In this document: positions 36,725 to 51,319 of the stretch, one piece after another | Layout: the number at the start of each line of letters is the position of its first letter | How positions within the stretch are numbered: the first letter of the stretch is position 1 | NCBI GenBank assembly: GCA_002840785.1 | Contig: PHCH01000001.1 | Location: 62,001-126,000 of the forward strand | DNA length: 64,000 nucleotides | From: Betaproteobacteria bacterium HGW-Betaproteobacteria-4 | GTDB lineage: Bacteria > Pseudomonadota > Gammaproteobacteria > Burkholderiales > Rhodocyclaceae | Direction of reading: 5' to 3' | The notes under the pieces: generated by a model | The model's database searches: none | Told to the model about the DNA's origin: nothing | Seen by the model: the letters and a program-made list of their open reading frames with translations, nothing else | Made by a program: the position numbers and the translations under genes

Positions 36725-36979
36725 GGGTTCTGTCGCGGTAATCTGCAGGCTGCGCAGCTCGCCAGAGCGGAAGAACTTCGCACCACGTCTGGAAGTTTGA
36801 AGGCCCTCATCGACGGATTTTAACTTTATCGAGCCTAAAAGGCTTTTGGTCGCCTGACATTACGTACGAAGAGAAACGGGCGTCTCCGATATTTTGTGTG
36901 TACGGCGTATGCGTTAAATATTTTTTGGCTTACAGCAAAGAGCAGAATGCCCGCAATATTTTGACGCCTACTATCGCGA

Positions 36980-37965: not shown

Positions 37966-38490
37966 CTATCGCTGAGGAGGACGTGCCGGGGGGGGCGGGA
38001 AAAAGCTAAAAGGCAAATAAAATTGTGATTTGAATTTTGTACAAATCGGGACGTATATAGAAAAATTCTCGATTATTTTTTCGAGAAGGTATTTTCCCCA
38101 ACCAAAGAGAAAGTAAAAAAATAAAGTTGAAACGGTTATTGAGAACAGTAGAATTATATCGACTGGCCCATTAAAAATAATGGAATTTATAAAAATAATA
38201 ATCGGGTAGGAGGCAATGGCCAGAATAAATCTTGGGCTGCAGGCAAATTCTGCCTTCCGGCGAAAATAGCTGACTAGTTTAACTGCATGCTGTTTTTCAA
38301 CGGGATTTAACCCGTTTGTTCTTAATAGAGATACAGTGTAGAAGAAAATTAAAAATCCTACCGACCGAAAAAGACTGGAGAAATCATCGGTGAATATATT
38401 TCCGTTATTATTCTCTCGCGAAGTCACTGCTGTTTTCTCCTTCGGCGAGAAAATTGCTTTTAAAAACGAGATAAAGTCAGTGCTGTTCAA
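37966..38490 (-). CDS. Unknown membrane protein encoded beside the giant recombinase
   Basis: A frame of 174 codons with a cytoplasmic N-terminal part and hydrophobic segments SVGFLIFFYTVSLL, FILAIASYPIIIFINSIIF and VDIILLFSITVSTLFFYFLFGW, ending in a proline-rich PFSFFPPPPARPPQR. The first codon is TTG (38490) without a clear RBS and no ATG follows in the N-terminal part, so the start is uncertain. An eight-G run lies at its 3' end (37987 region). It is AT-rich and 53 bp upstream of the 289-residue gene, on the same strand. No family recognised. Confidence 0.55.
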   Translation of the reverse strand: MNSTDFISFLKAIFSPKEKTAVTSRENNNGNIFTDDFSSLFRSVGFLIFFYTVSLLRTNGLNPVEKQHAVKLVSYFRRKAEFACSPRFILAIASYPIIIFINSIIFNGPVDIILLFSITVSTLFFYFLFGWGKYLLEKIIENFSIYVPICTKFKSQFYLPFSFFPPPPARPPQR

Positions 38491-38657: not shown

Positions 38658-41600
38658 CTAAGGCTGAGTTTTCTGAACGTTTGCCGCAGTCAATGATGCT
38701 AAAAATGCAACAACAAGCTCAAACCGATTTCGAATAACTCCGTCTGAACTCTCAGTAAGTAATAATCCGCATCTGCTCTGCACGAGCGGTGCGAACGGTT
38801 CGTCGTTGAATAGCATCTTGTCTACTTGTACGCCGCGAGCACGGCCACCAATTTCCTTGAACGACCTCGGGGAAAAATCGAACTCCCGCGCATTTTCTAT
38901 CAGAGTCGGATCCTCGATTGACCTCGCAATATCAAATCGATTCGAATCTATACCCCAACTTTTCAAGAATATTTGAAGCGTTGAAAATTGCTCGCGGTTG
39001 CAGGCCAGTAGCTGACGACTACTCCCAATCATTCGTGCTCCTTCTCTAAGTGGGAGGAGTGCTCCCAGGTCATTTTTATTTTCGTTACCCGAAGCTATCA
39101 ACCTGTTCCAAGACTCTTCGTAAATTTTTCCCAGCCAGTTCATGCCATCCACGCCAGATTTATTACTTGCTGGCGGAGCTTCGTGCTCAGGTTCGACAGC
39201 TTTTCCGTTCCAATACATTCGCTCCCCGACCGTGGTTATTGCCCGCTCTAAATCAAATATCGATTCGCGAGCAAATCCCAGACATTGCGCTACCTCAGCC
39301 GCAGGCAATCCTCTCCCCAAGAGACGCATTGCGCGAAGCACATCGGCTAATCTGTTCTTCTTGTCTTGCGTATTATTTGTGTGAAAGTCGGTGTTGTGGC
39401 GGGGATGCTGCAGCGGATAGTTCTCTAGCTCGACCCCGAACTGCAATTCGGCGACTATTTTTCTTCCGCTGGTATAGGTCAGCAGCTCTGTCCAGTCAGA
39501 CAGAAAGTGTAGGTAATTGCCGAACTGCGTTGTTATGCCCGCGTGCCCTAAATAGCGCGCCACGGCCCATGGAATCCGGCGAGATATTTCCTGCCTATCC
39601 ATCAATACCATTGCCGTTTTTTGATGATCTCCACCTTGTGCGCTCACAGGTTTCCAATTTTTCAGATCAAGGCCCAAGAGATTTAGCGTAATTCGATTGC
39701 CTACCCCATGGCGTCCGCGATGAAGATTCTGACGGGGATTCCCTGTGACAAATTTGATCGCGCTCAATGCTAAAGAGCTAATCGCGTTGAGGTTTAGAAA
39801 TGTTCCGCTACCTAACGAAAAGAGAGGACTAGAAACGCCCTCGGCAACGCTCGCCTGCGCCCGTTTGACGATTTGCCCAACTAGCCGTTTTTCTCTATCT
39901 GTGAATTCATTCAGTAGTGGAACAGCTCGCCTTGCTGCTTGTGTTTTCAACTTTCGATGAGGCCGGGATTTCACGAAGACCACAATCCAATCTTCTGTCT
40001 CTATCCAGTCCGTTGTCGTCAAACCCAACGTCTCGGAGCGCCGAAGCCCAAAATGATAAATACAAAGAATCAGGAACGCTGCGTAATTTCCTTCTTCTGA
40101 CTCCAGCTGCAGAAGTAGTTGGAGTGCATTGCCATAGTCTGTATCAGTCCATACCCCTGGATCGACAGAAACCCCGTTACTCATTACGGGCAACTCGCCC
40201 CAGTCCGGCTCGGGAATTTCCGTGCGCAGTTTTGCCCAACGATGAAATTCTCGGAGCCGATTCAATACAGTTCTACAATCCTGAGCGGTGGCGGCCTCCA
40301 AAATGTCACAATACAACTCCGTAATGCCGTCATCATCGAGCATCGTTAAATTCGCGTCGTAGGCTGTACGTTCGAACACGCCGGACAGTGTCGTGAAATA
40401 AGTTCGAACTGTTCCAATTGCCAGTAACCCGCCTCGGTAGGGTCTCAAAAGCAACCAAGCAAGCCAATCTCCCAGTAGAAGTGCAGCCTCTTCTACTTGG
40501 CCGTTATAGGCGCGAATGATGGTCCGGATTTTTTTTTGCCATTCCCTTCGACTGCCTTTGGTTTGCTGTGTCGGTAATGGCGACGGACCTTCATCGCCTA
40601 TCGCTCCGCGCAGTTTAGAAAAGAAGGTGCGCGTGTTGTTTTGTAGGCGCTCTGAGTTTTTGTCTTTTAACTGCAGCAAGCGCCGGACAGACAACTCTCC
40701 GTCCTCCTCTTTCGGCGCATTCAAATCTTCAATCAAACGACTTTCTCGCCAGCGCACCCTTAGCCATTCTTGAGTCTCCAGCGAATATGTCTTCAGACGC
40801 CCAGACAGGTAGCCACCAACTACGCCGGGCAACTGTTGGAAATTTGCTTGATCAACTATTTCTGCCAAGCTGTTTAATAGCTCGGACGTTGTAATCAACT
40901 GGTGGCCGACATGCGCCGAGATAATTTCTTTCGTACCACCGACCCAATCTGGCGCTACCTTGGCTACCCAATCCTTTTTTCTGTTTGACCTGCCTAAGGC
41001 TCGATCCAAGAGCTTTGCCGTAATTGGATGAATTCGAAAGCGCTGAACAGGCGCGGTTAAATCTTTCTCATTTAGTTCCGGAGCGTGTTCGAGAAATGGC
41101 AACCCACCTTTAGTGATCAAACGGAAGTTCTTCCCGACAATCACGTCACGCAATAATTCTGTGTTCGAGATCCTCGATAGAACAGCCAACTGAATCACTG
41201 CATGCAGCGCCGCATCGTCTTTTCCTGTGCGGGAAGGTTGAAGTGAATCTGCCAATTCGGTAACCACTGATGTCAATCGACTCAGTGTCTGAACTGCTCC
41301 GGGGGCAAATTGAGTAACTACCGTTGGCTCCTCTACTAGTGCCCCGTAACGCTTCTTTAACTTGATCCTTTTGCCCAGCTTGCGCCATCGCATCTCGACG
41401 AATCTAAGAAATACCGAGTAGCGAAGAAGTCCATGGGGATGGGGCAATCCCTTTCGATTACAGAGCAATCTTCGACATAATTTTTCTATGTCGTCGGCAG
41501 ATAACTCATCGAGTGTGCGACCTCCAAGGAATTCAACAGTGATCCTGCGAACACTTCGCAGAGCCTCGATGCGCTGCTTTTTTTGGTACTCAAGGCGAAG

Positions 41601-44081
41601 CTCCGAGCCAAATTTCGTTGGTGACTTACCAACTGGCAAGTCCTGTAGGTCTTGCGGTTCACCACGCCAGTGAGGGGTCAGTGAGAAAGCTAACGATTGA
41701 TAGAGCTCCGCCAAGGGAACGCGTATGGTATCCATGTCTTCGCGCCATGTGCGATATGACATATCCCCATGTGTGGATGCCCCGCGTTCCGCATGACCAA
41801 GGAACGCATCGACAATTTCGGCTGAAATTCTCCTCTCTCTTAAGCCTGATGCGAGACGGTGGCGAAATAGATTCAGCGGCAATGGGCATCTAAATAAATT
41901 CAGACCATAAAGATTTGATTGAGAAGCATGCTTCCAATGCAAGCCGCCTTCAGCCCCCAGCAGAAAGAAGAACGGAAGTTGTGTGCGTTTCTTTTTAGAT
42001 AGGTTTTTGATGGCCTCCGACAGCTCACTTGAAACGTCAGAAATCACGTTGGCTAAAACTCCCAAATAGCTCAAATAGCCGGTTTGGAGTTCGTTAAGAA
42101 GTTCATCAACAACAGCTATCAGGCGCCCATTTCGGGCCTTCCCAGAAATTTTGTCATTGAGAAATAGATTCGACTGTATCCAGTCAAAATGGCTCGGTGA
42201 CCAAAATGGATCTTGAAGAACTCTTGCCCCTGTTGCGGCATAGAGCTTGAGTAAATAGTGAAGGGTCAGTGCATTGTGGAAGTCGATGATTGACTCTCCA
42301 CGACTCAACGCATTCAGTCGTGACTCCAGCGAATGAATTTCCTGAATCAGGCGGGGTTCGGCTACAGCAAGCAAGCTACCCAAGCCGTTAAACTGATCGG
42401 AGGCTTCTGCCACAAAAGGGATACGCAACGATGCCTCTGTCGCTGCTTTTACAATTGCCATTGGCCAGCTGGAATATGCCGTTGCCCCCGGCAACGAAGT
42501 TCGCGGATGAGCCCCGATCAAATTGGCAAGTACATGGTCGCCCGAGCGCGCGAACACGTCTTGCTGCAAAAGCTTAGCGATCGTCTGTGAGGTGATATTT
42601 GGAAAACTATCGAGCTTAAACACCTCACGAAACACTTTTTCCGGCGGCTCCAAGCCTGCGTGTTCCCATACCTGCCCGAGGGTAGAGGTAGATTCCCCTT
42701 CTATAGGTTTTTCGCTCAGAAGAGATATAAATCGGACAACTGGCTCAATAAGTGGGATTGACTGCTGTGCCGAATGTGGCTTGATCCATTCCTGCTCCTC
42801 CTTGGTCTTTGGATGCCAACCGGAGGCTCGCCTTGAGGGGAGACGAATCAACGCCTTCAAGGTCAGTGAAACCTTCCATTCGGGCCCAGGTACATCGCCA
42901 AACTCTAGCTGCTCCACCTGATTGATCGATCTGGCTGCAGCAACCCCAATCCAAGTTATGCAGGAAACTGCCCAAACGCTGAAATCGGTGGCCGCCAAGC
43001 ATTGTTCTAGCTGGCCCCAGAATCTTTGTTTTTGAAACGGGAGTACCTGAGGTAAAGACCAAGGTAGAAACTGGATGTCCTCTTGGCGTTGCAGAAGCAG
43101 GCGTCCCAAGCCGATTTTGTGAAATGCGTAGGAGTCGTCAGGATTTACTTTGGCCTTGACAATCGCATTGAGGTTACCTTCTGTTTCGGTATCTCTATCC
43201 GACCCTCGACTGGTTTCGTTTTCATCAACCTCGCGGTCATCAAATTCATCCTGAGGGGTGGTGTCGAGGGCAATCGGAGTTGGGAGTCCTATGTCTCCTT
43301 TGCTCTTCAGGTTTTCAAATCTGGTAACTCGTTCGAGTGCGAGTAGCAGACCTCGCTCCTGGCTGTCCGTCTGAATGTGACGCTCGTGTTCCAAGGCGCC
43401 TTTGAGCTGAAAAATCAGCTGACTCTCTCGACGATGATGTGGCAAAAGTCGACAAAAGAAATCTGGCCATACACCGATCCCATCATGAGCGAGTCTGAGC
43501 GAAGCACACAGTGTTGAGAGATGCTCTTCCCTCCGGTATCCCCTATCCGCGATATTCAATGCGCGGACGAATATCCACAGCCTAAAAGTCTCGAACCTGG
43601 CAACATCCTCGTGCTTACCAATAAAAGGGCGGGCCACGAGTAGTGCCAATAAATAGTATTGTTCGACCACGCCCGGAAAATGGTGACTGGCTTTTTTGTT
43701 GAAACCCAAGGCCCGAATTTCTGAAAGGTTACTCAGGTCTTTAGTGCGCAAAGCGTTGGAAATTCGATAGAGCACTCCTGCGTGCCGAGAGCCATCTCTG
43801 TACCATCGCTGTAAAACCTGCAGAGCTAGTTCTGACCCAATTACGTCTAGCATATTCCGAATCGCGTTCGGCTTTTGGAGTAAAAGCGTTACATCAACGA
43901 CCTTCTTCCAGTCGTTTTCTACCCCTGAGTTCCGCATCCAATCTAGAACGCGATAAAACTCCATTTGGTCAGCAGTAGTCGGCTTTTCGCTGGGTGAGGA
44001 GGCCTCTTGCAGGGGCTCATCTGGATCAGATAATAGGGGTTGGTCGAGTTGGTTTGATTTCGGTCGTAAATTCGATGCCAT
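38658..44081 (-). CDS. Giant multi-module tyrosine recombinase (1807 residues)
   Basis: An exceptionally long site-specific integrase. Its C-terminal module has a full catalytic set: Arg1347 in FGLRRSETLGL, Lys1379 before AARRAVPL, His1454-x2-Arg1457 in LHRGRHG, His1513 in RYLGHAG and Tyr1523 in FGNYLHF; a core-binding region lies at about 1170-1300. A second module is visible at 384-776: Arg384 in AAARSINQVEQLE, NLFRHRLASGL (Asn where His is usual, Arg740), LGHAE (His763) and Tyr776 in GDMSYRTW, probably impaired. A third Arg-box-like LSRISNTELLRD lies at 970. An HTH-like segment (LPAAEVAQCLGFARESIFDLE) follows at about 1592. Usual integrases have 300-450 residues. The gene starts about 100 bp from a tRNA-Pro 3' end copy. 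The RBS is weak. Confidence 0.85.
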   Translation of the reverse strand: MASNLRPKSNQLDQPLLSDPDEPLQEASSPSEKPTTADQMEFYRVLDWMRNSGVENDWKKVVDVTLLLQKPNAIRNMLDVIGSELALQVLQRWYRDGSRHAGVLYRISNALRTKDLSNLSEIRALGFNKKASHHFPGVVEQYYLLALLVARPFIGKHEDVARFETFRLWIFVRALNIADRGYRREEHLSTLCASLRLAHDGIGVWPDFFCRLLPHHRRESQLIFQLKGALEHERHIQTDSQERGLLLALERVTRFENLKSKGDIGLPTPIALDTTPQDEFDDREVDENETSRGSDRDTETEGNLNAIVKAKVNPDDSYAFHKIGLGRLLLQRQEDIQFLPWSLPQVLPFQKQRFWGQLEQCLAATDFSVWAVSCITWIGVAAARSINQVEQLEFGDVPGPEWKVSLTLKALIRLPSRRASGWHPKTKEEQEWIKPHSAQQSIPLIEPVVRFISLLSEKPIEGESTSTLGQVWEHAGLEPPEKVFREVFKLDSFPNITSQTIAKLLQQDVFARSGDHVLANLIGAHPRTSLPGATAYSSWPMAIVKAATEASLRIPFVAEASDQFNGLGSLLAVAEPRLIQEIHSLESRLNALSRGESIIDFHNALTLHYLLKLYAATGARVLQDPFWSPSHFDWIQSNLFLNDKISGKARNGRLIAVVDELLNELQTGYLSYLGVLANVISDVSSELSEAIKNLSKKKRTQLPFFFLLGAEGGLHWKHASQSNLYGLNLFRCPLPLNLFRHRLASGLRERRISAEIVDAFLGHAERGASTHGDMSYRTWREDMDTIRVPLAELYQSLAFSLTPHWRGEPQDLQDLPVGKSPTKFGSELRLEYQKKQRIEALRSVRRITVEFLGGRTLDELSADDIEKLCRRLLCNRKGLPHPHGLLRYSVFLRFVEMRWRKLGKRIKLKKRYGALVEEPTVVTQFAPGAVQTLSRLTSVVTELADSLQPSRTGKDDAALHAVIQLAVLSRISNTELLRDVIVGKNFRLITKGGLPFLEHAPELNEKDLTAPVQRFRIHPITAKLLDRALGRSNRKKDWVAKVAPDWVGGTKEIISAHVGHQLITTSELLNSLAEIVDQANFQQLPGVVGGYLSGRLKTYSLETQEWLRVRWRESRLIEDLNAPKEEDGELSVRRLLQLKDKNSERLQNNTRTFFSKLRGAIGDEGPSPLPTQQTKGSRREWQKKIRTIIRAYNGQVEEAALLLGDWLAWLLLRPYRGGLLAIGTVRTYFTTLSGVFERTAYDANLTMLDDDGITELYCDILEAATAQDCRTVLNRLREFHRWAKLRTEIPEPDWGELPVMSNGVSVDPGVWTDTDYGNALQLLLQLESEEGNYAAFLILCIYHFGLRRSETLGLTTTDWIETEDWIVVFVKSRPHRKLKTQAARRAVPLLNEFTDREKRLVGQIVKRAQASVAEGVSSPLFSLGSGTFLNLNAISSLALSAIKFVTGNPRQNLHRGRHGVGNRITLNLLGLDLKNWKPVSAQGGDHQKTAMVLMDRQEISRRIPWAVARYLGHAGITTQFGNYLHFLSDWTELLTYTSGRKIVAELQFGVELENYPLQHPRHNTDFHTNNTQDKKNRLADVLRAMRLLGRGLPAAEVAQCLGFARESIFDLERAITTVGERMYWNGKAVEPEHEAPPASNKSGVDGMNWLGKIYEESWNRLIASGNENKNDLGALLPLREGARMIGSSRQLLACNREQFSTLQIFLKSWGIDSNRFDIARSIEDPTLIENAREFDFSPRSFKEIGGRARGVQVDKMLFNDEPFAPLVQSRCGLLLTESSDGVIRNRFELVVAFLASLTAANVQKTQP

Positions 44082-49267: not shown

Positions 49268-51075
49268 TCAGGCAGCGTTCTTGAACAGCGCCATTTCGAA
49301 CAGCTCGCGCTTGAGTGTGAATTCGCGCGGCAGCTTTTCGCCCATCTTGTCGAACCACTCCTTGTGGCCGGCCAGTTCGGACTTCCAGGCATCGGCATCA
49401 ATGTTGGTCAGACCCTCGAACTCGACCTTGGTGATTTCCAGGCCGGTCCAGTCGATGTCTTCGAACTTCGGCATCCAGCCCAGCGCGGTTTCCTTGGCGG
49501 CGACGGTGCCCTTGCAACGCTGGACGATCCACTTCAGGACGCGCATGTTGTCGCCGAAGCCCGGCCACATGAATTCGCCCTTTTCGTTCATGCGGAACCA
49601 GTTCACGCAGAAGATCTTCGGCGCGGCGTCGACGGTCTTGCCCATCTTCAACCAGTGGTTGAAGTAGTCGCCCATGTGGTAGCCGCAGAACGGCAGCATG
49701 GCGAACGGGTCACGGCGGACGACACCCTGCTGGCCGAAGGCGGCAGCAGTCGTTTCGGAGCCGAGGGTAGCAGCCATGTAGACGCCGTAGTTCCAGTTGA
49801 AGGCTTCGTACACCAGCGGCACGGTGGTGGCGCGACGGCCGCCGAAAATGAAGGCGGAAATCGGCACGCCAGCCGGGTCTTCCCAGGCGCTATCGACGGA
49901 CGGGCACTGGCTGGCCGGCGCGGTAAAGCGGGAGTTGGCGTGGGCGGCCTTCTTGCCGGCCTTGCCGTCTTCCGGCGTCCAGTCCTTGCCCTGCCAGTCG
50001 ATCAGGTGATCCGGGGCCTGCTTGGTCAGGCCTTCCCACCACACATCGCCGTCGTCGGTCAGAGCGACGTTGGTGAAGATGATGTTTTCCTTGAGCGTGG
50101 CCAGCGCGTTGTAGTTGGTCTTTTCGCTGGTGCCCGGGGCGACGCCGAAGAAACCGGCTTCCGGGTTGATGGCGTAGAAACGGGTGACGCCGTCCTTGTC
50201 GACGCGCGGCTTGATCCAGGCGATGTCGTCGCCGATGGTGGTGATCTTCCAGCCGTCGAGGGTCTTCGGCGGGATCAGCATGGCGAAGTTGGTCTTGCCG
50301 CAGCTTCCGGCGATTCGACGCCGAGGATGAGCATGTGTTCGGCCAGCCAGCCCTGATCACGCGCCATGTTCGAGGCGATGCGCAGCGCGAAGCACTTCTT
50401 GCCGAGCAGGGCGTTGCCGCCGTAGCCGGAACCGTAGGACCAGATTTCGCGGGTTTCGGGGTAGTGAACGATGTACTTGACGGTCGGATTGCACGGCCAC
50501 TTGGCATCCTGCTGGCCCGGCTCGAGCGGCGCACCGACGGTGTGGATGCAGGGGACGAACTCGCCATCGCTGCCGAGCACGTTGAAGACGGCCTTGCCCA
50601 TGCGGGTCATCGTCTTCATGTTGGTGACGACGTAGGCCGAGTCGGTGATCTCGAAACCGATATGGGCGATCGGCGAACCAAGCGGACCCATGCTGAACGG
50701 GATCACATACATGGTGCGACCCTTCATGCAGCCCTTGAAGATACCGTTCAGCTTTTCGCGCATGACGGCAGGCTCTTCCCAATTGTTGGTCGGGCCGGCG
50801 TCTTCCTTCTTGGCGGAGCAGATGTAGGTGCGGTCTTCGACGCGAGCGACGTCGGATGGATCGGAGAAGGCCAGGTAGGAATTCGGGCGCTTGGCTTCGT
50901 TGAGCTTGATCAGGGTGCCGGCCTCTACCATTTCGGCACACAGGCGGTCATACTCTTCTTGCGAGCCGTCACACCAGTGGATGCGGTCGGGTTGGGTCAG
51001 GGCGGCGATTTCGGCGACCCATTTCTTCAGGCCTTCGTGTTTAACGTAATCGGGCGCGTTCAGCGGTGCGGTCAT
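49268..51075 (-). pseudogene. pckG: GTP-type phosphoenolpyruvate carboxykinase, frame broken at the P-loop
   Basis: The two halves of one PEPCK gene lie in different frames. The N-terminal part (51075 to about 50300) encodes [38 protein letters not shown] and [22 protein letters not shown] through ILGVESPE. The C-terminal part (about 50300 to 49268) encodes [29 protein letters not shown] and the remaining about 330 residues. Between ESPE and CGKTNF the family has about 10-13 residues (KTYVAAAFPS-like, the start of the kinase-1a loop) that are missing, and the frame shifts. Oxaloacetate-PEP conversion would be lost, unless this is a sequencing error. The terminator and RBS are intact. Start MTAPLNAP at 51075. 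Confidence 0.85.
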
Positions 51076-51319
51076 GGCGATGTCTCTCTCCAAGTTACTG
51101 AAATAGATGAACTGTTCGCCAGTCGCCGGGAGCTGCCACCGAGACTTCGAGCGGCGAGGGGCCGTCGGCTGGGAAGCCCGTAATTATGCATCAACTCAGG
51201 GTAAACATCTACTTGACTTATCGGGTCTAAGTGATTTCCACGGGTGAAAGCGCTGACGTTGCATGGTATTATGTTCCGCGATTCGAAAATGCGTTTCACA
51301 ATACAAAATGGAGACAAAC

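Follow-up and report, generated by a model that had tools for sequence, protein, structure and literature searches.

A family of very long tyrosine recombinases, fused or in two adjacent genes, with a canonical C half and a putatively split active site in the N half

Among described mobile elements, GInts and strand-biased circularizing integrative elements (SEs) appear nearest in layout to the locus reported here, judging from the portions of the cited papers that were available. In GInts (ginABCD), several recombinase genes share a single operon at the island's 5' end, followed by variable cargo; one partner is degenerate and frequently labelled as hypothetical, an additional small gene is present, and the elements are site-specific (PMC5385486). 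They comprise three separate recombinases plus GinD and have repeats of 10-17 nt, and the available text of that paper holds no mention of 'tRNA' (PMC5385486). SEs carry the four coupled genes intA-tfp-intB-srap, with one ordinary recombinase, one large recombinase and a partner that shares the fold only; they occur on chromosomes and plasmids and have inverted-repeat ends and 6-bp footprints (PMC10214605). Several tyrosine recombinases also act together, as separate proteins, in RIT elements and Tn554 (PMC10214605, PMC8138268). In Flp the tyrosine helix swaps into the pocket of a neighbour, and trans cleavage had, as of 2013, been demonstrated for Flp and the SSV1 integrase only (PMC3646895).

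The window, which is the whole stretch of 64,000 nucleotides analysed here, carries a single open reading frame of 1807 codons, P0001, that begins with ATG and encodes 1807 amino acids. The unbroken minus-strand frame proposed from the DNA letters was thereby confirmed. The features of P0001 and its immediate surroundings are listed below.

38658..44081, minus strand: P0001, fused N-C recombinase (one open reading frame plus family evidence)
43131..43976, minus strand: N-terminal helical region, residues 36-317 (AlphaFold2 secondary structure; no integrase profile match with hhalign)
42402..43130, minus strand: M1, degenerate recombinase-like domain, residues 318-560 (hhalign and AlphaFold2 helix/strand order)
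42474..42476, minus strand: codon of Y536, the sole invariant Tyr of the N half (alignments)
41682..42395, minus strand: M2, recombinase catalytic domain, residues 563-800 (R620, K644, N737, R740, H763; hhalign)
40722..41594, minus strand: M3, region lying between the halves, residues 830-1120 (AlphaFold2; no integrase match by profile)
40152..40664, minus strand: core-binding-like helical domain of the C half, residues 1140-1310 (hhalign and AlphaFold2)
39447..40160, minus strand: M4, canonical catalytic domain, residues 1308-1545 (hhalign 98.9%)
38661..39404, minus strand: C-terminal tail, mainly helical, residues 1560-1807 (AlphaFold2, partly low confidence)
37966..38490, minus strand: 174-aa open reading frame after the recombinase, also present in L009
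37043..37912, minus strand: 289-aa open reading frame after the recombinase, also present in L009
36894..36895, no strand: end of DNA similarity with L009
44164..44203, plus strand: tRNA-Pro(CGG) 3' fragment at the island end, spanning the anticodon arm through 16 nt beyond CCA

The C-terminal bound of M1 lies at about 560 or 562, AlphaFold2 confidence was low at residues 256-309 of the N-terminal helical region, and the hhalign profile of the C-terminal tail gave no integrase match. A frame of this length, in a draft genome of 174 contigs, might be read as an assembly or annotation artefact or as a decaying pseudogene. That reading, to which we assign practically no probability, is refuted by nine stop-free frames of 1623-1827 amino acids in eight other genomes of the same family (28-33%, or about 30%, identity), by a second copy that is 97% identical, and by the conservation of the catalytic residues.

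P0001 belongs to a widespread family for which no name was found. Matches to it were present in 22 of 297 genomes of the same taxonomic family, and a profile built from eight full-length proteins matched 13 of 399 genomes in a sample of the order and 19 of 398 in a sample of the phylum at E 1e-10, the genome of P0001 being counted each time. Searches of Pfam, NCBIfam and PADLOC with the family returned weak generic integrase matches or none, and nothing from PADLOC. The NCBIfam matches on P0001 were weak XerC/XerD matches, and those on the C halves were mostly to Xer models, far below cut-off; a PHROGs integrase family matched residues 1257-1526 of P0001 at E 8.3e-8. The GMT gene set is a trio of GmtX, GmtY and GmtZ with a tyrosine recombinase. 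GMT islands are described, in the available part of PMC12715929, as rich in defence genes. Membership in this group was rejected on the basis of GmtY, whose model (441 positions) exceeded its cut-off in none of the 14 genomes or records that hold the family. No GMT model was among the NCBIfam matches listed for P0001 and 12 family proteins. The Pfam, NCBIfam, PADLOC and GmtY searches agree with the statement, made in the sequence-only reading, that no described integrase of such size and layout was known to it. No fused N-C form appears in the available portions of a tyrosine recombinase survey (PMC8138268) or of PMC10214605, and literature searches for a fused or split-site tyrosine recombinase found none among the papers listed, which leaves absence unproven.

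Forty-five loci were fetched, and both halves were found in 41. The gene was of the fused type in 23 of the 41, three of these (L094, L095 and L096) being truncated at a contig edge or broken by an insertion. In the other 18 an N gene (738-901 aa) and a C gene (1004-1206 aa) stood side by side. When the longest frames were taken, N stood directly before C with overlapping frames in all 18 split loci. A further gene, X, of 163-228 aa (with a longest frame of 178 aa in L011, which is included in the count), was present in 11 of the 18 and ended at most 60 bp from the start of N or overlapped it; a small same-strand frame before the fused gene was seen in L089 and L102 only. A tree of the 41 C catalytic domains required two changes between fused and split. 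In this tree L096, a fused gene carrying an insertion, was labelled split and grouped with the fused L093 at 100/100, and the remaining 19 split rows formed one group at 94/90. With L096 so labelled, an AU test rejected a single clade of 21 fused rows (p 1.8e-61), a rejection that we read as an effect of the label. The tree fits one fusion or one fission, its direction being unrooted, with long branches, L103 and L105 among them, that make parts of it unsure. Rows L094 and L125 were dropped from the N alignments A2 and A4, and L011 and L012 also from A4; the truncated C parts of L095 and L096 were dropped from A3 and A5, and L011 also from A5; L009 was dropped from both the N and the C alignments. 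The insertion in L096 carries a 429-aa frame on the opposite strand.

The sequence-only reading of a fused chain of several recombinase modules, one complete and the others degenerate, is supported by these comparisons, and the length of the chain is conserved in relatives. A fusion artefact of two normal-sized genes is contradicted by the recurrence of the fused form and by the one-event tree; two genes do occur at the split loci, yet the separate partners are themselves very long.

By alignment and structure prediction, the C half is a canonical tyrosine recombinase, with R-K-H-R-H/W-Y in one catalytic fold. The full Arg-Lys-His-Arg-His-Tyr set recognized earlier at 1347-1523 is conserved in the rows of the family. 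Among ungapped rows, R1347, R1457 and Y1523 were each kept in 41 of 41 and K1379 in 42 of 42, while H1458 and H1513 were kept in 40 of 41 and H1454 in 37 of 41, with Tyr in the other four. Eleven new C proteins, five of them close Acinetobacter copies, all keep R, K, R, H, H and Y at 1347, 1379, 1457, 1458, 1513 and 1523, and nine of them keep H1454. The AlphaFold2 model of the C half had a pLDDT of 82.2, and in a Foldseek search the best 50 of its 126 PDB matches were all tyrosine recombinases, eight at E <=0.001; XerH, XerA, Cre, an integron integrase, Tn1549 Int and lambda Int were matched. The core-binding-like domain gave an hhalign probability of 64% against integrases, obtained with an earlier profile in which one row, L001, was in the wrong frame.

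The N half differs in that its residue set is split over two domains. M2 matched integrases with an hhalign probability of 96.8% and keeps R620 in 42 of 42 ungapped rows and K644, R653, R740 and H763 each in 43 of 43. The R, K, R and H of a tyrosine recombinase are thus retained within M2, and the first His is mostly replaced, position N737 being Asn in 32 of 43 rows and His in one. At the usual nucleophile position (H771 in P0001) the 43 rows have F in 13, Y in 11, W in 9, H in 4, L in 4, T in 1 and Q in 1. The block at 737-776 described earlier, with Asn for the first His, is present, and the assignment of MSYRTW (Y776) within it did not stand: the nucleophile position is H771, and a single row of the 43 has Tyr at 776. 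Within the close clade of the window the M2 nucleophile position is Tyr in six of nine rows, so M2 there could use a Tyr of its own; the window itself has His.

The Tyr that is kept lies in M1. All 41 ungapped rows have Tyr at 536, as do, in a larger alignment of 49 rows, all 47 that are ungapped; the next most kept Tyr of the N half, at 669, is found in 41 of 49. In a 39-row N alignment, at 13-31% identity to P0001, the invariant positions are Met1, Y536, R620, K644, R653, R740 and H763. Ten new plasmid N proteins, five of which are close Acinetobacter copies, all keep Y536, R620, K644, R653, N737, R740 and H763, and have F (7), Y (1), W (1) or A (1) at the usual nucleophile position. M1 gave hhalign probabilities of 43% against integrases and 75% against M2 over 63 columns, the former having risen from 17% after removal of the wrong-frame row L001 and addition of six more N rows; its kinship with recombinases appears only moderate. 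It looks like a worn recombinase domain. The Arg-box-like block pointed out earlier at 384 falls inside it as a remnant (R384 in 20 of 42 ungapped rows), and the family alignment shows no conserved box II in M1. In the first profile alignment, which included the L001 row, the M1 Tyr coincides with the integrase Tyr; in the M1-M2 alignment Y536 is three columns off the M2 nucleophile position.

Structure prediction, proposed at the outset as a check on the integrase fold, returned tyrosine recombinases as the best PDB matches of both halves, the N half less firmly: its model (pLDDT 82.2), searched as a whole half with Foldseek, had tyrosine recombinases as its 27 best PDB matches, the best at E 0.026 and none at E 0.001. 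Against a viral library, the named rows were mostly integrases, none at E 0.001. Because Y536 and the M2 pocket residues are invariant, also in the 10 new N proteins, we infer a composite active site in the N half, made of Y536 of M1 and R620/K644/R740/H763 of M2. The earlier proposal that one module cleaves and the others bind or bridge DNA holds as to a multi-recombinase chain and is probably too little for the N half, since that half keeps the full set except the first His, split over two domains.

A different explanation is that only the C half cleaves and that N is a dead DNA-binding partner with a structural Y536, comparable to Tfp of SEs. M2 does lack a conserved nucleophile and M1 is degenerate, and Tfp is reported, in the available part of the source, to lack catalytic residues and has been suggested to be a DNA-binding protein (PMC10214605); a dead partner would, however, have no obvious reason to keep R620, K644, R740 and H763 in all ungapped rows of the 43 and in 10 of 10 new proteins when its other positions diverge strongly, and we regard this explanation as unlikely. 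The composite site would amount to a novel class of split-site recombinase, in which the Tyr comes from a degenerate copy, the Arg-Lys-Arg-His from a second copy, and a canonical enzyme is the partner; in the clade of the window one chain would hold two sites and form half a synapse. We put this forward tentatively, as a serious candidate that falls a little short of being probable. On a Sphingobium plasmid (L208:3523-4542), a 339-aa N protein starts shortly before the Y536 segment with all catalytic positions kept, and no upstream remnant was present in the stretch searched.

Between the halves, M3 was modelled by AlphaFold2 as helices and few strands, and it may hold a very worn recombinase fold. 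A separate recombinase module near 970, proposed earlier from an Arg-box-like block, was not supported: this block matched integrases with an hhalign probability of 1.2% (4% with an earlier profile), and R970 is Arg in seven of the nine rows shown.

P0001 starts 82 bp from the tRNA-Pro fragment listed above, which has one mismatch and an 11-nt deletion relative to an intact tRNA-Pro at contig position 3139-3215, 103 kb away; within the 64-kb window no intact tRNA gene was found. The right flank was matched in 54 of 60 genomes of the genus, own genome included, and the loci of the 11 best relatives were compared for an empty site. An intact tRNA-Pro stands at the site in six of the 11, and the island flanks adjoin in five (L164, L165, L169, L170 and L174), with 91-94% flank identity and a 43-bp overlap in L164 and L165. 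The sixth relative with an intact tRNA-Pro, L172, has about 1.3 kb between the flanks, and L167 and L168 have the 3' part of the tRNA only. Since the flanks adjoin in relatives, the window lies in a 103-kb island with P0001 at its far end, and the locus shows an intact tRNA, a 3' fragment and adjacent flanks in relatives, as a tRNA-integrated island does.

Tandem accretion in this island was considered and rejected: no copy of at least 11 nt of the 24-nt core was found elsewhere on the contig, and anticodon-arm look-alikes elsewhere had four mismatches. A tRNA 3'-half profile, applied to the 600 bp upstream of the operon, matched at 8 bits in 11 of 43 loci, in every case on the other strand from the operon; in L091 and L112 an intact tRNA gene scored best, with a fragment present as well, the L107 match is edge-cut and 570 bp away, and some upstream pieces were shorter than 600 bp. 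Control pieces matched in 13 of 1158 cases, six on the strand opposite to the operon and some of them intact tRNA genes. This profile supersedes an earlier blastn search with an incomplete tRNA library (7 of 43). Five further loci (L088, L093, L095, L096 and L098) have tRNA 3' parts by eye, and the remaining 27 of 43 have none upstream of the operon. Three of seven extended loci have an intact tRNA at the far end (tRNA-Thr at 74 kb, tRNA-Pro at 39 kb and tRNA-Gly at 66 kb), the tRNA and fragment of each pair sharing 44-46 columns at 98-100% identity. The check proposed at the outset, whether length and neighbours are conserved at tRNA genes in other genomes, came out positive for length; in the window and in several of the relatives the gene lies at an island end that derives from a tRNA. 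The 3' fragments near the recombinase in the window, L097, L088, L093, L095, L096 and L098 seem to lack a stretch between the anticodon arm and the acceptor end, with both fragment ends retained; the loss was measured as 11 nt in the window and seen by eye in the others.

The position at a tRNA is insufficient on its own to show that P0001 acts there, because conventional integrases are found at tRNA ends too. At the opposite end of the island a conventional 450-aa integrase (C40:3938-5290) lies beside the intact tRNA-Pro, where the island integrase would be expected, and it alone could have made the insertion, P0001 being cargo or a second element. In G549, too, the intact tRNA has a conventional integrase next to it, and in G913 a truncated one, and conventional integrases occur in the fetched stretch of 13 of 44 loci; nine are downstream of the operon and six of the nine are convergent with it. 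Near some plasmid copies of the family there are conventional integrases as well. The P0001 block is itself modular, because DNA similarity with L009, a 95% identical counterpart of the window copy with the same two open reading frames after the recombinase, stops at 36894; no long direct repeat shared by this boundary and the other end was found. Insertion by the conventional integrase is in our estimate a genuine possibility, though on balance the improbable one: the operon lies beside tRNA-derived ends in one orientation in several lineages, the X-N-C genes have a left end of their own on plasmids, and in G553 no conventional integrase was found closer than 18.8 kb to the intact tRNA.

In islands of this family a conventional integrase is commonly seen on the other side. 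Near the unrelated copies L092, L101, L105, L110, L113, L115, L116, L118 and L089, the integrase stretches share about 64-81% DNA identity with one another, and the N-C genes of those loci are mostly unalignable at the DNA level.

The plasmid copies come from the split clade, to which the observation of a mobile left boundary is confined. Relatives of the C gene are carried by 208 and 223 Acinetobacter plasmid records, and the annotation of these plasmids calls both X and N hypothetical and C a site-specific integrase. The left end of X-N-C lies 164-168 bp before X and is constant within about 4 bp over five unrelated left contexts, for which reason the module seems to be mobile itself, acting independently as a mobile-element end. 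On the right, similarity stops within about 25 bp of the C stop codon in six of eight pairs and the cargo varies; no convincing repeat of the left end was found at the right end of the plasmid element. Several X proteins (for example L120:13101-13769 and L116:4384-5070) contain a 'GFRRF'-like stretch that is ParB-like by eye. Pfam gave weak helix-turn-helix hints for X proteins, and the X proteins of L198 and L210 are without the 'GFRRF' stretch. A stretch of about 9 kb in L113, and likewise in L115, contains X, N, C, two small genes and an integrase.

From the order and overlap of N and C in the 18 split loci and the one-event tree, and from the island end, the left X-N-C boundary and the tRNA halves at 11 of 43 loci against 13 of 1158 controls, we judge it rather probable that P0001, a natural fusion of the partner recombinases N and C, works as a heterotypic, Xer-like pair that serves an integrative element. 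The C half would cleave via Y1523. The N half would cleave via Y536 of M1 placed in the M2 pocket R620/K644/R740/H763 of the same or a neighbouring chain, a placement that would resemble the Tyr swap between Flp subunits. The core site would be asymmetric, with N on one half-site and C on the other; in this island it would lie in the anticodon arm of tRNA-Pro at the gene-proximal end, and fusion would let two P0001 chains suffice for a synapse. If true, this would be one natural protein in which the Tyr of one domain serves the next pocket, and the cis-versus-trans question of tyrosine recombinases could be tested inside a single chain. A mobile-element module is also brought to light whose genes, in the records examined, carry just the labels 'hypothetical protein' and 'site-specific integrase'.

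Viral relatives were considered as well. The viral family phrog_33072 (1066 positions), of the same length class as the L109 C gene, matched that gene at 434-708 (E 2.6e-13) and the L118 C gene at E 6.8e-9, with P0001 matching at E 0.034; by this similarity the family may have phage relatives. A viral origin was tried and rejected, since none of 75 places found with two peptide patterns in viral contigs was a relative, and no phage record matched P0001 by tblastn.

Two other arrays of tyrosine recombinase matches, each in a row on one strand and RIT-like by count, were seen in the same genome: three at C57:31414-33840 and five at C160:7243-14778. In the window, at 49268-51093 on the minus strand, a PEP carboxykinase (GTP) match falls in a 337-aa frame whose upstream neighbour, a 272-aa frame, overlaps it; the two may be a single gene split by a frameshift or an assembly error.

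Compared with described systems, the family shares with GInts an operon at the island end, a degenerate partner that is often 'hypothetical', an extra small gene and cargo; it is set apart from them, by description, through two very long partners or their fusion, the split residue set and the tRNA fragments. With SEs it shares an ordinary recombinase beside a large one, a degenerate partner, gene coupling and an occurrence on chromosomes and plasmids, and it is again set apart by description, with two large recombinases and X in place of four genes. RIT elements have three adjacent recombinase genes, whereas one fused gene or two genes are found here. XerC and XerD, about 300 aa each and both canonical, are two related recombinases that act on one asymmetric core in host housekeeping. 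The likeness to them is that of paired recombinases on an asymmetric core; the difference is that the Xer proteins are short, canonical and housekeeping. In Flp and the SSV1 integrase the Tyr comes from a neighbouring identical subunit, whereas here a different domain, within the chain or on its neighbour, is proposed to supply it.
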